DNA from: an uncultured Caulobacterales bacterium
Lineage (GTDB): Bacteria; Pseudomonadota; Alphaproteobacteria; Caulobacterales; Maricaulaceae
DNA length: 49,286 bases
Assembly: GCA_937924355.1 (NCBI GenBank)
Contig: CALDSY010000083.1
Location: forward strand, 1-49,286
Direction of reading: 5' to 3'
Shown: positions 13,278 through 27,099 of the stretch, one piece after another
Layout of the letters: the number at the start of each line of letters is the position of its first letter
Position numbering within the stretch: position 1 is the stretch's first letter
Position numbers and translations under genes: made by a program
The notes under the pieces: model-generated
The model's input: the letters and a program-made list of their open reading frames with translations, nothing else
Databases searched by the model: none
What the model was told of the DNA's origin: nothing

Positions 13278-13292
13278 TTAAGAGATGGTTAA
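13278..13292. promoter_or_regulatory. CtrA-type box upstream of gltD
   Basis: TTAA-GAGATGG-TTAA matches the full CtrA consensus TTAA-N7-TTAA. It lies about 70 bases upstream of the gltD -35 hexamer and about 290 bases from uppP, so the target gene is uncertain. Confidence 0.5.
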
Positions 13293-19710: not shown

Positions 19711-19725
19711 TTAACGTCTCGTTAA
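19711..19725. promoter_or_regulatory. CtrA-type box upstream of nrdA
   Basis: TTAA-CGTCTCG-TTAA(C) is a perfect match to TTAA-N7-TTAA. It ends 21 bases before the first NrdR box and 31 bases before the putative -35 of nrdA. It could also act on the divergent GT4 gene. Confidence 0.6.
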
Positions 19726-19746: not shown

Positions 19747-19793
19747 ACACAAGGTGTTGACGAAAGAGAGCAAATCAACACTATATATAGTTC
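19747..19793 (+). promoter_or_regulatory. NrdR box pair and promoter of nrdA
   Basis: The second box, ACACTATATATAGTTC (19778-19793), is close to the NrdR consensus acaCwAtATaTwgtgt; a weaker box, ACACAAGGTGTTGACG, begins exactly 31 bases upstream (19747). NrdR binds such pairs spaced about three helical turns. A sigma70-like promoter TTGACG (19757-19762), 18 bases, CTATAT (19781-19786) lies under the boxes, so binding would block RNA polymerase. Confidence 0.75.
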
Positions 19794-19919: not shown

Positions 19920-21845
19920 ATGACAGAAAACGGGTTTGAAAACGTGGCAACTGAGATCATGCCAGAGGAAGAATTAGAACATAATAATCAAGAACGAAAA
20001 CCCGAGTCGCCAAAGACGAAAGCCGGTAAGCCTAAGCACATAAAAATTGTTGATTCGATCAAGGTCCGTCAGGACAGATCGCGCGACGCGCTTTTAACGG
20101 ATTTCGGAAAGAAAACCCTCGTTGATCGCTATTTGCTTCCGGGCGAAACTTATCAGGATATGTTTGCTCGGGTCGCCGAAGCCTATGGGGATGATCAGGA
20201 ACACGCCCAGCGCATCTATGATTATATGTCTCAGCTCTGGTTTATGCCGGCGACTCCGGTTCTGTCTAATGGCGGAGCGGAGCGGGGCTTACCCATATCC
20301 TGTTTCCTGAATTCTGTGGACGACAGCCTGGGATCCATTGTCGACATCTGGAATGAAAATGTCTGGCTGGCCTCTAATGGCGGCGGTATCGGGACTTATT
20401 GGGGTAATGTTCGCTCTATTGGTGAGAAAATCGGTAAAGCGGGTAAAACTTCCGGTATTATTCCTTTCATTCGTGTCATGGACTCCCTGACACTCGCCAT
20501 CTCACAAGGCTCTTTGCGCCGAGGATCGGCGGCTGTTTATCTGGATATCCACCATCCAGAAATTGAAGAGTTTCTGGAAATTAGAAAGCCGTCCGGCGAC
20601 TTTAACCGCAAGTCTTTGAATCTGCATCACGGCTTGAATGTTTCTGACGAATTCATGATGGCTGTGCGGGACGGCAAGGAGTTTGGTCTCCGCTCGCCCA
20701 AAACTAACGAGATCATCAAGACCATTGATGCCCGTTATTTATGGCAAAAAATTCTGGAAATGCGCCTGCAAACCGGTGAACCTTATTTGGTTTTCTCTGA
20801 CACGGTGAATGAGGCCCTGGCCAAGCACCAAAAAGATCAGGGACTGCGAGTGCGTCAGTCCAATTTGTGTTCCGAAATTATGCTCGCTACCGGTAAAGAC
20901 CGTTTCGGCAAAGAACGCACGGCGGTCTGCTGCCTATCGTCTGTTAACGCTGAAAAGTGGGATGATTGGAAAGACGAAGACGGCTTTATCGAAGACATCA
21001 TGCGTTTTCTCGATAATGTCCTTGAAGATTTCATTCAGCGCGCGCCCGACGAAATGAGTGACGCTGTATATTCTGCCATAAGAGAGCGCTCTGTTGGTTT
21101 GGGTCTGATGGGTTTTCATAGCATGCTGCAGGCGAAAAACCTGGCTTTTGAAAGCGCCATGGCGAAGTCTTATAACAATCGTATGTTCCTGCATATCCGC
21201 CGCGAAGCTGATGCGGCCTCGGTGAAACTGGCGGAAGAGCGCGGCGCTTGCCCGGATGCTGCAGACATGAACATTAAAGAGCGGTTTTCTCACAAAATGG
21301 CCGTTGCGCCAACGGCGTCGATTTCGATCATTTGCGGCGGGACATCTGCTGGTATTGAGCCCATTCCGGCCAATATTTATACCCATAAAACTTTGTCCGG
21401 ATCGTTCACTGTTAAGAACAGACATCTTGAAGCCGTTCTTGAGGAAAAGGGACTGAACACAAAAGTGATCTGGGGCACTATCCTGGAAAACGAAGGATCG
21501 GTTCAGCATCTCGACGAACTAGACGATCATGAAAAGGCGGTCTTCCGGACAGCCTTTGAAATTGATCAACGCTGGATTATTGAGCATGCTGCGGATCGTT
21601 CACCGCATATTTGTCAGGCCCAGTCTGTCAATATCTTTATCCCTGGTGACGTGGATAAATGGGACCTGCACATGCTGCATTGGTCAGCTTGGGAGAAGGG
21701 CGTGAAGTCGCTTTACTATTGCCGTTCTAAATCCATTCAGCGCGCATCTTTTGCGGGCGCAGAAGATAAGCCGGCTAATGAAATGGAGAAAGCCATGCAG
21801 GCCGCCGCACCGACAGATTATGAAGAGTGCCTCGCTTGCCAGTAG
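19920..21845 (+). CDS. nrdA: Ribonucleoside-diphosphate reductase, alpha subunit
   Basis: Class I ribonucleotide reductase large subunit, making deoxyribonucleotides for replication. 641 residues, short for NrdA (about 760 in E. coli) because the N-terminal ATP-cone is absent; the start region is a charged tail (1-50) leading straight into the barrel. Active-site cysteines are in LPISCFLNSVDDS, in SNLCSEIML (with the Asn and Glu of N-x-C-x-E) and in CCLSSVNA; the glycine-rich loops NGGGIGTYWG and SQGSLRRGSAAVYLD are present. The C-terminal redox pair is ECLACQ. The partner nrdB lies downstream, separated by an exported-protein gene. Regulated by NrdR boxes and possibly CtrA. Confidence 0.96.
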   Translation: MTENGFENVATEIMPEEELEHNNQERKPESPKTKAGKPKHIKIVDSIKVRQDRSRDALLTDFGKKTLVDRYLLPGETYQDMFARVAEAYGDDQEHAQRIYDYMSQLWFMPATPVLSNGGAERGLPISCFLNSVDDSLGSIVDIWNENVWLASNGGGIGTYWGNVRSIGEKIGKAGKTSGIIPFIRVMDSLTLAISQGSLRRGSAAVYLDIHHPEIEEFLEIRKPSGDFNRKSLNLHHGLNVSDEFMMAVRDGKEFGLRSPKTNEIIKTIDARYLWQKILEMRLQTGEPYLVFSDTVNEALAKHQKDQGLRVRQSNLCSEIMLATGKDRFGKERTAVCCLSSVNAEKWDDWKDEDGFIEDIMRFLDNVLEDFIQRAPDEMSDAVYSAIRERSVGLGLMGFHSMLQAKNLAFESAMAKSYNNRMFLHIRREADAASVKLAEERGACPDAADMNIKERFSHKMAVAPTASISIICGGTSAGIEPIPANIYTHKTLSGSFTVKNRHLEAVLEEKGLNTKVIWGTILENEGSVQHLDELDDHEKAVFRTAFEIDQRWIIEHAADRSPHICQAQSVNIFIPGDVDKWDLHMLHWSAWEKGVKSLYYCRSKSIQRASFAGAEDKPANEMEKAMQAAAPTDYEECLACQ

Positions 21846-21850
21846 TATTT

Positions 21851-21876
21851 TGACTTAAATCGTGTGATTTAAGTCA
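21851..21876. repeat. 11-base perfect inverted repeat after nrdA
   Basis: TGACTTAAATC / GATTTAAGTCA with loop GTGT, 5 bases after the nrdA stop. The stem is AT-rich and no T-run follows, so it is a weak terminator at best; it could be an RNA-stabilising hairpin or a protein-binding dyad. Confidence 0.5.
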
Positions 21877-21909
21877 CAGTAACTGATTAAATACAGCCAT
21901 ATAATGGCC

Positions 21910-21924
21910 TTAATCTTGTATTAA
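21910..21924. promoter_or_regulatory. CtrA-type box upstream of the exported-protein gene
   Basis: TTAA-TCTTGTA-TTAA(C), a perfect TTAA-N7-TTAA. A GAATC (CcrM methylation-type GANTC) follows at 21942-21946, within a small palindrome TTCCTA-TT-TAGGAA (21931-21944). A weak -10, TATTTA (21935-21940), is placed as in CtrA-activated promoters. Confidence 0.6.
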
Positions 21925-21956
21925 CGGTAGTTCCTATTTAGGAATCCGGTGAGATG

Positions 21957-22033
21957 TTTTTCGACACAGAGGTCGAAAAATGTGCTATTATAAAGGTAAT
22001 GATGTAGTTTTTCGACTACAGGCTGTAAAAATG
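21957..22033 (+). repeat. Duplicated start-codon leader with hairpin
   Basis: Two related 26-base units, 21957-21982 and 22008-22033, each begin TTTTTCGAC and end AAAAATG. They are 51 bases apart, so the two ATGs are in frame. The first unit is also a perfect hairpin, TTTTTCGAC / GTCGAAAAA with loop ACAGAG. Either ATG could begin the downstream protein. Confidence 0.55.
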
Positions 22034-22792
22034 ACGACTCGGACGAGAACATATCCTTGGTCTAGCTTGCAAACGCAATTTGCAAGGCTTTTGGCTTGTT
22101 TGTCTGTTTCGGTAATGTTTGTCGCTGGGCCTGCCATGGCTCAGGACGATAATGATAATAGCACTCCGGCTAATAGCTTTAAATTGGACGTGGAAACGCC
22201 TTTTTCAGATAATACCGACCTGACAGCCATAGGTCCGCAGCTGGAGATAGGTCCAGAGGCATTAGGGTCTCAGATTTTTGACCTGGATTTGCGAGATGTG
22301 AATTGTCGGTCCGGAGACGAGACCTGTCTGTCGCGCGATGAAAGTTTGGATATGCTCTATTCCAAGTCGTTGACAACGTCTATTTTGGATAAGCGCGGTA
22401 TCGATATTGAGCTGACGCCGCGGGCATCTGTCAGCTTTAATGATGGATCCTCTAGCGCTGTGGTCGGGGCGCTCGTTAAAATTGGCGATGACCTTAAAGC
22501 TGGTGATGCGATCAAATCCAATACTTGGTATGTCTTCGCGGGCGCCGATGCCGAGGCTTTATCCTATGCTCCTAATGATATGAACCGGGTGACCGTCGGA
22601 GATTTCAATCTGCAAGAACGGGTCATTGTTGGCGATGCACAAGCCGGTGTTGGATACAGATTAAATGACTCAACAGATATTTCTTTGGGATATTTCCGCC
22701 GTGAGGTGACTTCGTTTGGTGGTGAATCAGAGTTGCAAAGCTCTAGTTTCAGCGAAGATGCCGCGGCCATTTCATTTACCTGGCGCCGCTAG
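22031..22792 (+). CDS. Exported beta-rich protein between nrdA and nrdB
   Basis: 253 residues from the chosen ATG, with a signal peptide ending in GPAMA-QDD. The mature part is rich in alternating strands; the final third (VGDAQAGVGYRLNDSTDISLGYF, then AAISFTWRR) looks like closing strands of an outer-membrane barrel, though the last residue is Arg, not Phe. One cysteine pair is in CRSGDETC. I do not recognise a family. An in-frame ATG at 21980 would add 17 residues before the signal peptide. Its own CtrA-type box and duplicated leader suggest separate control from nrdA. Its position inside the ribonucleotide reductase locus has no obvious functional reason. Confidence 0.7.
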   Translation: MTTRTRTYPWSSLQTQFARLLACLSVSVMFVAGPAMAQDDNDNSTPANSFKLDVETPFSDNTDLTAIGPQLEIGPEALGSQIFDLDLRDVNCRSGDETCLSRDESLDMLYSKSLTTSILDKRGIDIELTPRASVSFNDGSSSAVVGALVKIGDDLKAGDAIKSNTWYVFAGADAEALSYAPNDMNRVTVGDFNLQERVIVGDAQAGVGYRLNDSTDISLGYFRREVTSFGGESELQSSSFSEDAAAISFTWRR

Positions 22793-22866: not shown

Positions 22867-22913
22867 CATCTATATATTGAGGTCTTGGCATTTCCTTTGT
22901 CAATATATAGTGA
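22867..22913 (+). promoter_or_regulatory. NrdR box pair of nrdB
   Basis: CATCTATATATTGAGG (22867-22882) and TGTCAATATATAGTGA (22898-22913) both match the CwAtATaTwg core of the NrdR box and start exactly 31 bases apart. They flank a possible promoter TTGGCA (22885-22890) and TATAGT (22906-22911) with a short 15-base spacer. So nrdB has its own NrdR-controlled promoter. Confidence 0.75.
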
Positions 22914-22948: not shown

Positions 22949-23995
22949 ATGGGACAACAGGGGCCAATCCAGACGGGAAAATCCGGACTTTTAATTCCAT
23001 CCCATAGCTATAAGCCTTTTCGCTATCCGTGGGCCTATGAATTTTGGAAAAAACAACAGCAAGTGCACTGGATGCCTGAAGAAGTCCCTCTGGGAGAGGA
23101 CTGCAAGGACTGGGCGACCAACCTCACGGACAATGAAAAGAACCTGCTGACGCAGATTTTCCGTTTTTTCACCCAAAGCGATGTAGAAGTGAACGACAAT
23201 TACATGGAGCGCTATGCCCGTGTCTTTAAGCCGACAGAAGTCAAGATGATGCTCTCGGCCTTTTCCAACATGGAAACCATTCATATTGCGGCCTATGCGC
23301 TTCTGCTTGAAACGATCGGTATGCCCGATACAGAGTTTTCCGCCTTTATGGACTACCAGGCCATGGCCGATAAGCACACCTATATGCAGGACTTCGGTGT
23401 TGAAACAGAAGCCGATATTGCGCGGACTGTGGCCATGTTTGGGGCCTTCACCGAAGGCCTTCAGCTCTTTGCTTCATTTGCTATGCTGATGAATTTCCCG
23501 CGTCTGAACAAGATGAAGGGTATGGGTCAGATTGTAACCTGGTCCATCCGCGATGAGAGCCTTCACTGCGAAGGCATGATCAAGCTTTATCATACGTTTG
23601 CCAAGGAAACCGGTTGTGTCACGCCGGCTGTGGCAGACGATATCATTGATTGCTGTAAAACGGTCGTGGGTCTGGAAGACAAATTTATTGATCTGGCGTT
23701 CGAAATGGGCCCTGTCGAAGGCATGACCAGTGAAGATATCAAACAATATATCCGTTATATCGCCGATTGGCGGCTGGGTCAGCTTGGCTTACCCAAAGTT
23801 TACGGCATCAAGCATCACCCGTTACCTTGGTTGACCGAAATCTTGAACGGTGTTGAGCACGCCAACTTCTTTGAAGCCAGAGCGACCGAATACTCGAAGG
23901 GTGCCACCACGGGCGCTTGGCACGGTGATGATGGCGTGTGGTCACAGTTCGAAAAGTTACGGTCTAAAAAGCTCACTGACATTGTTTCGGAATAG
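22949..23995 (+). CDS. nrdB: Ribonucleoside-diphosphate reductase, beta subunit
   Basis: The radical-generating small subunit of class I ribonucleotide reductase. 348 residues from the ATG preceded by GCGAGGG; a longer frame from a TTG at 22877 would run through the NrdR boxes and is rejected. Metal ligands are seen in PEEVPLGEDCKDW, in METIHIAAY (E-x-x-H with Tyr four residues on, the radical Tyr position), in TEGLQLFASF and in RDESLHCEG. No ATP-cone is present at either end. Together with the alpha subunit it would form a class Ia-like enzyme without the classical dATP activity switch. Confidence 0.96.
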   Translation: MGQQGPIQTGKSGLLIPSHSYKPFRYPWAYEFWKKQQQVHWMPEEVPLGEDCKDWATNLTDNEKNLLTQIFRFFTQSDVEVNDNYMERYARVFKPTEVKMMLSAFSNMETIHIAAYALLLETIGMPDTEFSAFMDYQAMADKHTYMQDFGVETEADIARTVAMFGAFTEGLQLFASFAMLMNFPRLNKMKGMGQIVTWSIRDESLHCEGMIKLYHTFAKETGCVTPAVADDIIDCCKTVVGLEDKFIDLAFEMGPVEGMTSEDIKQYIRYIADWRLGQLGLPKVYGIKHHPLPWLTEILNGVEHANFFEARATEYSKGATTGAWHGDDGVWSQFEKLRSKKLTDIVSE

Positions 23996-24003
23996 ACGGC
24001 CCT

Positions 24004-24774
24004 GTGCCTAAAATACATTCTCTAAACAGCGTTCGAAACTTTCGTGATTTCGGCAGCTATCCGGCCATAGGTGGCCAAGAATTGGTTTCAGGAAAACTAT
24101 TCCGTGCCGCGCATTTCAATGAGACTGATACAGATGACCGTGCCTTTATCGCTAACCTGAATCTAGGTCTTGTTGTCGACTTGCGCCATGCACCCGAGCG
24201 TAAACGGCAACCCAATACGTTTCCGTCTGTCGACGATGTCCAGACCTTGTTTATGGCTGAACCTGGCAAGGCTCCCGAATTTGCCCCTCATGAAATGTTC
24301 TTGAAAGAGAAATTGGAAACAGCGGATGATGCCCGAAACTATATGATCGGATCTTACACCGCCCGGCCTGATAACCCGGCATTTCAAAAGATCTTTGGAG
24401 ACACGTTGCGTTTTATGGCCAAGGAAGGGGCGCCCTTGGTTGTTCACTGTACAGCTGGAAAAGACCGGACCGGGACCTTGGTTGCGATTATTCAAAAAAT
24501 TCTCGGCGTCAATGATCAGGATATCATGGACGATTATATGCTGACGATGGAAGCTGTTGACATTGAAATGTTTTTGGAACCTGCGTCCAAATTTATGAGT
24601 GAGCGTTTTGATCGCGTTATTAAACCCGATGCTCTACGGCCTATGTTTGGAGTCGAGCCCGCTTATTTACAAGCTGCGCTACAAACCATGGGTGACGTAG
24701 ATAACTATGTAGAGAATGTTCTTGGCATTGCGTCAGAAACGCGAGACAGCATCCGGAGCAATTATCTAAGCTGA
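24004..24774 (+). CDS. IphP-type tyrosine phosphatase-like protein
   Basis: 256-residue protein of the bacterial tyrosine phosphatase group (PF13350 type). N-terminal NFRDFGSYPA and GKLFRAAHF are typical, and the P-loop HCTAGKDRTG gives Cys149 as nucleophile and Arg155 as phosphate ligand. Substrates of this family include phosphotyrosine and in some cases phosphoinositides; none can be named here. It starts with GTG 8 bases after nrdB, so probably in the same transcript. Its 3' end overlaps the convergent TadE-like gene by 9 bases. Confidence 0.87.
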   Translation: MPKIHSLNSVRNFRDFGSYPAIGGQELVSGKLFRAAHFNETDTDDRAFIANLNLGLVVDLRHAPERKRQPNTFPSVDDVQTLFMAEPGKAPEFAPHEMFLKEKLETADDARNYMIGSYTARPDNPAFQKIFGDTLRFMAKEGAPLVVHCTAGKDRTGTLVAIIQKILGVNDQDIMDDYMLTMEAVDIEMFLEPASKFMSERFDRVIKPDALRPMFGVEPAYLQAALQTMGDVDNYVENVLGIASETRDSIRSNYLS

Positions 24775-25416
24775 TACCGTACAGCTGACAAGTTTGTCGG
24801 TCCCAACCGAACAGGTAAACCGGTTGGCCCCGCCTTCGTCAAAAGGCACATTGATGGATTTCCGTGGTTTCATCACCAGAGTTTCTGACATCGTAAACGC
24901 GTTTAAGAAAAATAGCGTGACGGGCTTATAGTTATAATTAAGCCGCGCTACAACAACACCTGACTGGTCATTGAACATTTGACTGTTCAGTGTGGATGGA
25001 TCGTAATTGGCGGGACCACCCGTGGTAATCTGCGGACCTAATCGGGCATATCCAATTTCATTGACTGTGCCATCGGTCATCATCTGAAAACTGCTGACCT
25101 CAATCGTCACGTCATTTAGTTCGTTGGCACTAAGGTCCAACACCGCGATAGTGGCCGTCATAACATCAGATAGCTCCACCGAATTCAACAAGGGCAATTG
25201 GGTCGCTAGGTCGGCTGTAACCGCCGTCGCATGCGAAACGTTTCTATCAGCCATAATGCCCATTGCGAGTTCCGACATCCCGAAATAGAAGGCGATCATG
25301 ATCGGCGCTACCAAGGCAAATTCGATTGCTGCGACGCCTTTGTTATCTTGGCGCAACTTGCCGAGCGTTGGAAATTTTGCTGCAACACTGTTCAATAGTT
25401 TTCTACGAATTGTCAT
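24766..25416 (-). CDS. TadE-like pseudopilin of the Tad pilus
   Basis: 216-residue TadE/TadG-like minor pilin or assembly factor. The N-terminus has the prepilin-like segment KGVAAIEFALVAPIMIAFYFG, with the Glu five residues after Gly expected for TadV/CpaA processing, then a long beta-rich periplasmic part with a terminal Cys pair (FTCSVGTDKLVSC). The ATG at 25416 is chosen: it overlaps the preceding stop as ATGA and GGAGG lies 9 bases upstream. It is the second gene of the minus-strand pair facing the phosphatase gene. Confidence 0.85.
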   Translation of the reverse strand: MTIRRKLLNSVAAKFPTLGKLRQDNKGVAAIEFALVAPIMIAFYFGMSELAMGIMADRNVSHATAVTADLATQLPLLNSVELSDVMTATIAVLDLSANELNDVTIEVSSFQMMTDGTVNEIGYARLGPQITTGGPANYDPSTLNSQMFNDQSGVVVARLNYNYKPVTLFFLNAFTMSETLVMKPRKSINVPFDEGGANRFTCSVGTDKLVSCTVSA

Positions 25417-25979
25417 GGTGCGCATCCTCCGGCCGGGAAGGGCTCGTTACGAAAAGCTGTCGACGCTGTAATGACCCGGTGATTGCCCGGTTGGTTTGCC
25501 AAGCGGGTAAACTCACCTGGAAAGGCTAAGTCGTGAAAATATTGGGCGCGAACCACCACAACGGACCGTGCAGCAGTTTGCATGTAATTGTCCGGCAATG
25601 GTGCAGGATTATTTGGATCACTTGGATCAGCCGTCATCGGCGTCGCGGGCAAAAGATTAGGTTGGAAACGACCGCTCGGAGAGGACACAACGTCAATCCT
25701 GAGATTTTCGCAGGATCCAATCGACATACGTCCACAAATAGCTGTCTTGAACTCAGCAGCGCCCCCGCAAGTTCCCTGGAACTCGCCGGTCCGTACATCG
25801 CGGGCTGCCTCGTTCATGGAATGCGTCAGTGACGAGTTTAAAAAGAAAACGATCGCCAGTTCCACGATTGAGAAAAGCAGTGCAAAGAATGGAACCGCTA
25901 GGATAGCGAATTCTAGCGCAGTCGCGCCGTCTTCATTCTTTTTATATTTACGCAGCCAGTTTCTGTAGGTCCGTATCAT
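25413..25979 (-). CDS. TadE-like pseudopilin of the Tad pilus
   Basis: 188-residue TadE-domain protein: EDGATALEFAILAVPFFALLF is the prepilin-type helix, followed by a periplasmic domain with cysteines in TCGGAAEFKTAICGRM and GSCENL, and a Pro-rich loop (DPSDPNNPAPLPD). The ATG at 25979 after GGGGAATGGG is preferred over a TTG at 26000. Translation of the next TadE gene is coupled by a 4-base overlap. A perfect CtrA-type box lies 68-82 bases upstream. Confidence 0.85.
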   Translation of the reverse strand: MIRTYRNWLRKYKKNEDGATALEFAILAVPFFALLFSIVELAIVFFLNSSLTHSMNEAARDVRTGEFQGTCGGAAEFKTAICGRMSIGSCENLRIDVVSSPSGRFQPNLLPATPMTADPSDPNNPAPLPDNYMQTAARSVVVVRAQYFHDLAFPGEFTRLANQPGNHRVITASTAFRNEPFPAGGCAP

Positions 25980-26046
25980 CCCATTCCCCGAAGAATTCAA
26001 AGAGTTTTATAGGAAAGAATGATTTAAGTTCCGCAAAGGAACAGCG

Positions 26047-26061
26047 TTAACGGACCGTTAA
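26047..26061. promoter_or_regulatory. CtrA-type box upstream of the TadE pair
   Basis: TTAA-CGGACCG-TTAA, a perfect match, in the 93-base gap between the two minus-strand pilus transcripts. A pilus gene is a known type of CtrA target in Caulobacter (pilA). Confidence 0.6.
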
Positions 26062-26072
26062 TCGACGGAAAC

Positions 26073-26636
26073 TTACTCGCCTGATGGGTAGTAAGGCTTT
26101 CTTGGATCGTCGTCAGCGAGCTCCGATTCTCCTTCGACCGCCATCCCCACAAAGTTGGGTTGACGCGATATACTTGGAGAAATAGCGGGTGTGTTTATCT
26201 CCCGAGTCTCTGGTGTATTGACGACGACAAAGTCGACCGAGTCCCCTAAAACAGGGGACGGCAGGCAATAAGGCGCGCAAGAGTAAGTTTCTCGGTCCCG
26301 CCCGGAATAGAGCCTGACGTTACCAACGGATACAGGCGCGACAACCTGGATATCGGCATCCATAATTGTTTGTCCGGCCATATTTAGAATGATCAGGTTT
26401 GTCTGACCGTAACCTCGGCCCAAAACAAAGACTGTATCGGATGAATGCACGGAAACATCTGCAATTTTGGGATTGCCAATGATAACAGCAGAGGCTGGTT
26501 CGCTCAGTCTAACGACTTCGGTTTTATTTAGCTCAACGCTATAGGTGCCGAAAGCATCCCCGGCAAAAGACGGGGTTACAAACGCCATAGACGCCACGAG
26601 AACGGTAGACAACGCCAATTTATTTCTAACGGACAT
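26073..26636 (-). CDS. Free-standing secretin N-domain (CpaC-N-like) protein
   Basis: 187-residue exported protein. The signal peptide ends TPSFA-GDA. Residues about 28-100 match the pilus/secretin N-terminal domain (PF13629 type): VVRLSEPASAVIIGNPKIAD, VFVLGRGYGQTNLIIL. The same domain opens CpaC in this window (VIVSNPDIVEAM, VLIGKKTGQTNVYFY), so it is a domain paralogue without the secretin channel. The C-terminal part has a Cys pair (SCAPYCLPSP) and an acidic Pro-rich tail. Start ATG at 26636 follows AAGGA at 7 bases. It probably assists or regulates outer-membrane secretin assembly; this is inference from domain and location. Confidence 0.78.
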   Translation of the reverse strand: MSVRNKLALSTVLVASMAFVTPSFAGDAFGTYSVELNKTEVVRLSEPASAVIIGNPKIADVSVHSSDTVFVLGRGYGQTNLIILNMAGQTIMDADIQVVAPVSVGNVRLYSGRDRETYSCAPYCLPSPVLGDSVDFVVVNTPETREINTPAISPSISRQPNFVGMAVEGESELADDDPRKPYYPSGE

Positions 26637-26831
26637 TCCAAATCCTTTTGATACAACGCTGTAAAGATAGTGAATGAAGCGTTTACAAATCGTTGATAGA
26701 ACTGGACGCAAAGGTGCTTTTTTCCGCCTTTGAGAGGCTTTTCTTTATAATATAGAGAAATAGGCCGTTTTCACACCCTCATGAACTCAGGATAAACGTC
26801 TAAAAAATAAGGAAAATCTTTACTATATCGC

Positions 26832-26863: not shown

Positions 26864-26928
26864 CGGTCTTAACAGGGACTGGCCCTGTGAGGAATATTTC
26901 CTCTTAAATGCATACGTGGGAGTTAGTT

Positions 26929-27099
26929 ATGCAAAAATTGGTTACTCGTTATATTAAAGACGAATCTGGTGCGACTGCTATTGAGTACGGCCTTATCGCC
27001 GCTCTGATCGCTGTTGCTTGTATCGCCGGTGCTCGTGCACTGGGTACAAACGTTGGCGGACGTTTCCAAGAAGTCGCCGACGCTGTTGGTGCTCCATAA
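26929..27099 (+). CDS. pilA: Flp/Fap-type major pilin PilA
   Basis: 56-residue precursor of the Tad pilus subunit. The leader MQKLVTRYIKDESG is cut after Gly14, leaving ATAIEYGLIAALIAVACIAG with Glu5 and Tyr6 of the mature Flp motif. Start ATG follows GGGAG at 6 bases; an upstream ATG (26908) lacks a site. It is followed by a strong terminator, so pilin mRNA is largely made apart from the cpa assembly genes, which fits a highly expressed subunit. Confidence 0.95.
   Translation: MQKLVTRYIKDESGATAIEYGLIAALIAVACIAGARALGTNVGGRFQEVADAVGAP

Follow-up and report, generated by a model that had tools for sequence, protein, structure and literature searches.

The gene that lies between nrdA and nrdB in an uncultured Caulobacterales bacterium, here called X, is by homology a relative of LpxR. 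Our preferred reading, which we hold with reasonable rather than strong confidence, is that X encodes a secreted and most likely outer-membrane barrel derived from LpxR, that the catalytic half has been lost, and that the gene was ancestrally tied to nrdA and later gained a promoter of its own. Comparison of sequences gives this reading its footing, with homology to the end portion of LpxR, lack of the catalytic region, a single origin, order-wide linkage to nrdA and strong purifying selection. X would reside in the outer membrane and would be without deacylase activity.

Gene X and its reading frame

The window (49,286 nucleotides of contig CALDSY010000083.1, the whole stretch of DNA analysed) carries nrdA, X and nrdB in that order, all on the forward strand. 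The sequence-only reading had placed X between the two reductase genes, and this was borne out, both nrd genes being confirmed by Pfam.

19920 to 21845, + strand: nrdA, class I ribonucleotide reductase large subunit (Pfam PF02867, E 2.9e-116)
22031 to 22792, + strand: X, predicted exported half-LpxR protein, 253 aa
22031 to 22141, + strand: signal peptide of X, cleavage between AMA and Q, by sequence inspection
22349 to 22789, + strand: LpxR-derived C-terminal domain, X residues 107-253, about seven LpxR strands
22949 to 23995, + strand: nrdB, ribonucleotide reductase small subunit (Pfam PF00268, E 7.8e-76)

The listed open reading frame of X opens at 21980. The start is most likely 22031 instead, because the ATG at 21980 falls inside an element (TGTGCTATtAT) conserved among eight promoters of the genus, and because the corresponding ATG of the sister genome G002 begins a reading frame that, read from the sequence, ends after 10 codons. 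Inspection agreed with the signal peptide described earlier, with a basic n-region, a hydrophobic core and an AMA-Q site (...VAGPAMA-QDD). A perfect hairpin (TTTTTCGAC-acagag-GTCGAAAAA) was also observed 5' of X at 21955-21980. An RNA switch or leader peptide, considered for the hairpins and the 10-codon frame 5' of X, was dropped since by eye this first hairpin was kept only in G002, the closest sister.

Relationship of X to LpxR

X had been described as an unknown protein. By profile homology it does have a known relative, the conserved stretch of about 147 residues at its C-terminus being the last part of LpxR, a Ca2+-dependent 3'-O-deacylase of lipid A in the outer membrane. The window X had LpxR (PF09982) as its sole Pfam match, with an E-value of 0.0058 and 16 bits, below the 26-bit curated cut-off. 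Some of its relatives exceeded that cut-off (e.g. 44.6 and 39.6 bits), with profile positions 166-323 matched, and each of the 48 X homologues gathered from relatives hit the LpxR profile of Pfam with an E-value of 0.1 or lower (1.2e-11 for the strongest). The C-terminal LpxR part was the portion matched in X members and in the genome matches listed. An hhalign comparison of the 48 X proteins with 35 full LpxRs returned 99.6% and an E-value of 9e-24 over LpxR columns 178-340 of 343. Searches of other collections gave no coherent match for X in NCBIfam, no relative in viral contigs (query A2) or plasmids, and a single chance match in Rfam (E 0.73, far under the gathering score). Profile searches of solved structures returned nothing for query A1 or for a stronger X member, and only chance-like matches for query A2.

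Among the residues that are invariant or almost so across the 35 full LpxRs are E57-N58-D59, D66, Y69, G72 and H177 (numbered on a 358-aa member), and E57-N58-D59, D66, G72 and H177 all lie N-terminal to the X-homologous region. The accessible text of PMC6260217 names N9, D10, T34, H122 and E128 as catalytic residues of LpxR, with H122 as the proposed catalytic base, and gives loop L3 as residues 110-139. In an LpxR of the order (L097), H187 aligned to H122 of Salmonella LpxR (3fid). X aligned to this protein only from residue 202 onward, past H187, so that, as aligned, it has no LpxR-type catalytic centre.

Full-length LpxR is a 12-strand barrel. Counting after loop L3, only about its last seven strands would be homologous to X, and an eighth strand may be formed by an amphipathic stretch near residues 79-93, non-homologous to LpxR. 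Hydropathy alternated in the X domain (0.50 vs 0.33 shuffled, p 0.022). The beta-rich character proposed earlier is consistent with the LpxR homology, but AlphaFold, run with three sequences each, gave no usable model (pLDDT 28.6 for full X, 31.0 for residues 84-253). Outer-membrane barrels usually end in an aromatic residue. X ends in ...TWRR, with no terminal aromatic residue, and the C-termini of the full LpxRs of the order are also variable.

Four positions of X (G146, G201, D202, G206) are invariant, and the last three of these align with a G-D-x-Q-x-G kept in most LpxRs. X is like LpxR (PF09982; Salmonella LpxR, PDB 3fid) in its predicted export, in its aligned columns and in having this motif with an R after it, whereas it differs in lacking the N-terminal half with the named catalytic residues, in its new and variable N-terminus, and in its locus at nrdA. 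The OmpA barrel, PagP and the OmpX type are small 8-stranded outer-membrane barrels. Compared with these, X is alike in predicted strand number and mature domain size, but no sequence relation between them and X was found, and X derives from LpxR.

Linkage of X to the reductase genes

Whole-genome searches of 61 relatives, including the window's own genome, recovered nrdA from all 61, nrdB from 59 and X from 44. A weaker X (E 3e-4) in G054, found after its nrd region had been fetched, was left out of the 44. Absence of X from this position in relatives would have refuted the sequence-only reading, but the position proved to be conserved, with X 6 kb or less from nrdA or nrdB in 42 of the 44 genomes (from nrdA in 39, from nrdB in 26). 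The two exceptions were G059, with X 42 kb from nrdA, and G020, in which X is alone on a 3.4 kb contig and cannot be judged. In families f4 and f5 the place beside nrdA is taken by other genes, and X is never found there; G059, which has its X elsewhere, is an f4 genome.

X might have no functional tie to its neighbours and simply be carried along, the surroundings of an essential and highly expressed gene being conserved as a whole. Other neighbours within family f1 do persist. The phosphatase gene 3' of nrdB, used as a control, lay no more than 6 kb from nrdB in 27 of 53 genomes, and a glycosyltransferase 5' of nrdA, present in 16 fetched loci at 61-87% identity, was often kept within f1. 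However, all of the phosphatase linkage fell within f1 (27/35) and none outside it (0/18), while X outside f1 was linked in 9 of 10. X also stays by nrdA or nrdB even where nrdA and nrdB have separated. General gene-order conservation therefore accounts for part of the linkage within f1 but not for the wider linkage of X, and we regard a passive association as possible but doubtful. Within f1 the tyrosine phosphatase-family gene (24004-24774 in the window) was itself observed to keep beside nrdB even where nrdB had left nrdA.

Full-length lpxR near X

Full-length LpxR (E<1e-70) was found in 15 of the 61 relatives. In eight of these (G019, G024, G026, G037, G041, G045, G049, G057) lpxR was directly 3' of X on the same strand, separated from it by 4-94 bp in the seven loci with clear starts; in G019 the chosen lpxR start overlaps X. 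Three more (G011, G029, G048) had full lpxR about 2.6 kb or less from nrdB. The window's genome is a MAG that is 82% complete, so its own lack of full LpxR is weak alone, but full LpxR was absent from all 10 genomes of the genus, this one included. Outside the order, lpxR was within 10 kb of nrd in none of 73 sampled LpxR genomes (by eye; split contigs may hide some); an nrdB match was present in 42 of the 73 and an nrdA match in 45. The simplest history would be an ancestral nrdA-X-lpxR-nrdB locus in which X arose from a partial lpxR copy, with full lpxR lost in the Hellea line.

The adjacency in eight genomes, with its short gaps, would also fit a role for X as a subunit accessory to full LpxR, or as its assembly factor or regulator, and a common C-terminal fold would permit strand-strand pairing between the two; X of Hellea would then be a relic or have a new barrel partner. 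We consider this unlikely, as 36 of the 44 X genomes have no adjacent full lpxR and 32 have none at all, and X is under strong purifying selection in a genus without LpxR.

Putative regulatory sites of X and the nrd genes

The sites found 5' of nrdA, X and nrdB in the window were as follows.

19711 to 19725, + strand: CtrA box 5' of nrdA, TTAACGTCTCGTTAA, exact
19778 to 19793, + strand: NrdR-like box 5' of nrdA, ACACTATATATAGTTC, 14 of 16 positions of the consensus
21863 to 21878, + strand: CRP/FNR-type palindrome, TGTGATTTAAGTCACA, a conserved block of genus X promoters
21900 to 21905, + strand: TATAAT, candidate -10 for a distal promoter (P1), shared only with G002, weak
21910 to 21924, + strand: CtrA box of X, TTAATCTTGTATTAA then C, exact
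21942 to 21946, + strand: GANTC (CcrM) site
21981 to 21991, + strand: TGTGCTATTAT, extended -10-like element, likely main promoter P2 of X
22867 to 22882, + strand: NrdR-like box 1 of nrdB, CATCTATATATTGAGG, by eye, 31 bp from box 2
22898 to 22913, + strand: NrdR-like box 2 of nrdB, TGTCAATATATAGTGA, 12 of 16 positions

The CtrA box and the GANTC site noted earlier at the X promoter were both present, the box at 21910 (TTAATCTTGTATTAAC) being an exact TTAA-N7-TTAAC. This fits the CtrA ChIP-seq motif of Hyphomonas neptunium, given as TTAA-N7-TTAAC in the accessible part of PMC7200025; the terms nrd, ribonucleotide and LpxR do not occur in its main text. Compared with the CtrA regulon of dimorphic Caulobacterales, the motif is likewise found 5' of nrdA and X in this genus, where it is known from sequence. 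TTAA-N7-TTAA occurs four times in the window where 0.67 would be expected, and none of 100 shuffles reached four. One further exact CtrA box (26047-26061) lies between a TadE-like ORF (25413-26000) and a pilus-formation N-terminal ORF (26073-26711), with a Flp pilin gene nearby at 26908-27099, and the fourth exact box is at 13278-13292.

Exact CtrA boxes were observed 5' of 28 of 61 nrdA, 9 of 48 X (within 400 bp) and 4 of 37 nrdB. Within the genus, 9 of 10 nrdA loci and 5 of 10 X loci had one, and further X promoters carried one-mismatch versions. The nrdA boxes were also found in families f4 and f5, where X is not beside nrdA. The box of nrdA is thus more widely spread than that of X, and the latter looks like a later, lineage-level gain. 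In the nrdA promoters of the order (L033-L096), f4 and f5 included, the CtrA box was often roughly 55-70 bp 5' of the NrdR-like box.

The earlier suggestion that shared cell-cycle timing brought X and nrdA together can be weighed against these counts. The CtrA boxes at both genes in the genus favour it, yet as a general cause of the linkage shared CtrA control was rejected, since 39 of the 48 X have no exact box within 400 bp although nearly all X genes are linked, and since f4 and f5 have the nrdA boxes with no X beside nrdA. With linkage kept in most X that have no exact box, CtrA would be at most a genus-level device, and we judge it decidedly unlikely that CtrA timing alone, both being cell-cycle genes, put X beside nrdA. 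The GANTC site is not conserved, only the window and G002 having one near the CtrA box among eight aligned genus promoters, and GANTC is depleted across the window (93 found vs 211 expected from shuffles).

Alignment of the eight genus promoters gave three conserved blocks, namely the palindrome, a CtrA-like box (TTAATCTTGTRTTAA) and TGTGCTATAAT, the block that corresponds to the P2 element. Exact copies of the palindrome TGTGA-N6-TCACA, which the sequence-only reading had not picked out, were located 5' of 7 of the 48 X genes, each from the genus, but at none of 60 nrdA and 37 nrdB. Allowing up to two mismatches, it was present at all 10 genus X, with L037 and L040 placing it at another distance. 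The window's own genome (2.3 Mb, 82% complete) contained five exact TGTGA-N6-TCACA sites against three for a reversed control pattern; the five were at X, before a large exported protein, between divergent genes, and inside two ORFs. The two other intergenic sites (L142, site 2964; L144, site 1359) are those before the large exported protein and between the divergent genes, near a regulator of LuxR type and a histidine kinase-like ORF (names by eye).

At P1 the centre of the CRP box would fall at -41.5. This arrangement fits the window and G002 only, and for this reason the conserved TGTGCTATAAT element is preferred, P2 being the likely main promoter of X. The promoter scan did not list the P2 element at 21981-21991.

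NrdR-like boxes were called at a threshold of at least 12 of 16 positions of the consensus. The box at nrdA was not above chance alone (0.18 expected; 17 of 100 shuffles reach one) but is recurrent 5' of the nrdA of relatives. According to the accessible text of PMC9110341, the NrdR pattern is two boxes about three helix turns apart. NrdR-like boxes recur at nrdA and nrdB, but were found 5' of just 1 of 48 X (L043), and no site reaching the threshold was found 5' of the window X.

Origin of the X family and selection on X

All 48 X proteins grouped as one clade (support 100/98) in a phylogeny of 83 C-terminal domains, and LpxRs from the order and the class fell outside it; the bootstrap of this tree was not fully settled (0.981). 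The X profile matched 69 of 240 sampled class-wide genomes. By eye, every match outside the order fell inside an LpxR match already found, so that in this sample X as a separate gene was observed in the order alone.

Between the window and G002 the C-terminal domain of X had a dN of 0.04 with dS near saturation, and more distant pairs had dN of 0.10-0.20 with dS at or near saturation. The low dN against near-saturated dS argues that X is a real and constrained gene under strong purifying selection. That X is a decaying remnant of lpxR, as might be thought from the survival of the C-terminal part alone in a genus that has no full LpxR, is hardly credible and was rejected, given a single old clade with intact frames, low dN, a signal peptide and conserved promoter blocks.

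Discussion

Under the preferred reading, a non-catalytic barrel derived from LpxR, X may bind or organise LPS, or assist another barrel, at the LPS-containing surface. With nrdA-X-lpxR-nrdB as the ancestral locus, X would probably have been produced together with the reductase. In the Hellea lineage full lpxR would be gone and X would stand under a promoter of its own carrying CRP-like and CtrA boxes, which would still plausibly tie its timing to the cell cycle. A more specific scenario, which we put forward as speculative and on balance improbable, is that a 12-strand deacylase was cut to an approximately 8-strand non-catalytic barrel at the nrd locus and acts as an envelope factor, with its supply tied to dNTP synthesis and with outer-membrane surface growth or LPS organisation starting with S phase.

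LpxR itself is already known, and what appears to be new is a half-LpxR family fixed at the nrd locus. Neither a paper joining LpxR with nrdA nor a non-catalytic half-LpxR family at an nrd locus was found in the literature searched, most subscription papers being outside it. In the accessible part of PMC6237742, which concerns Caulobacter and LpxR, lpxR appears only as an example sRNA target.

If right, this reading names a hitherto unknown gene family retained next to an essential gene for DNA precursors in several families of the order, and provides an example of a catalytic outer-membrane barrel reduced to a non-catalytic one. It would also offer a testable case tying envelope genes to replication genes. 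The Caulobacterales are a model group for the bacterial cell cycle, and CtrA, nrdA and X could for that reason be tested together in culturable relatives. The interest would be greater if X proves to couple envelope growth with the supply of DNA precursors.
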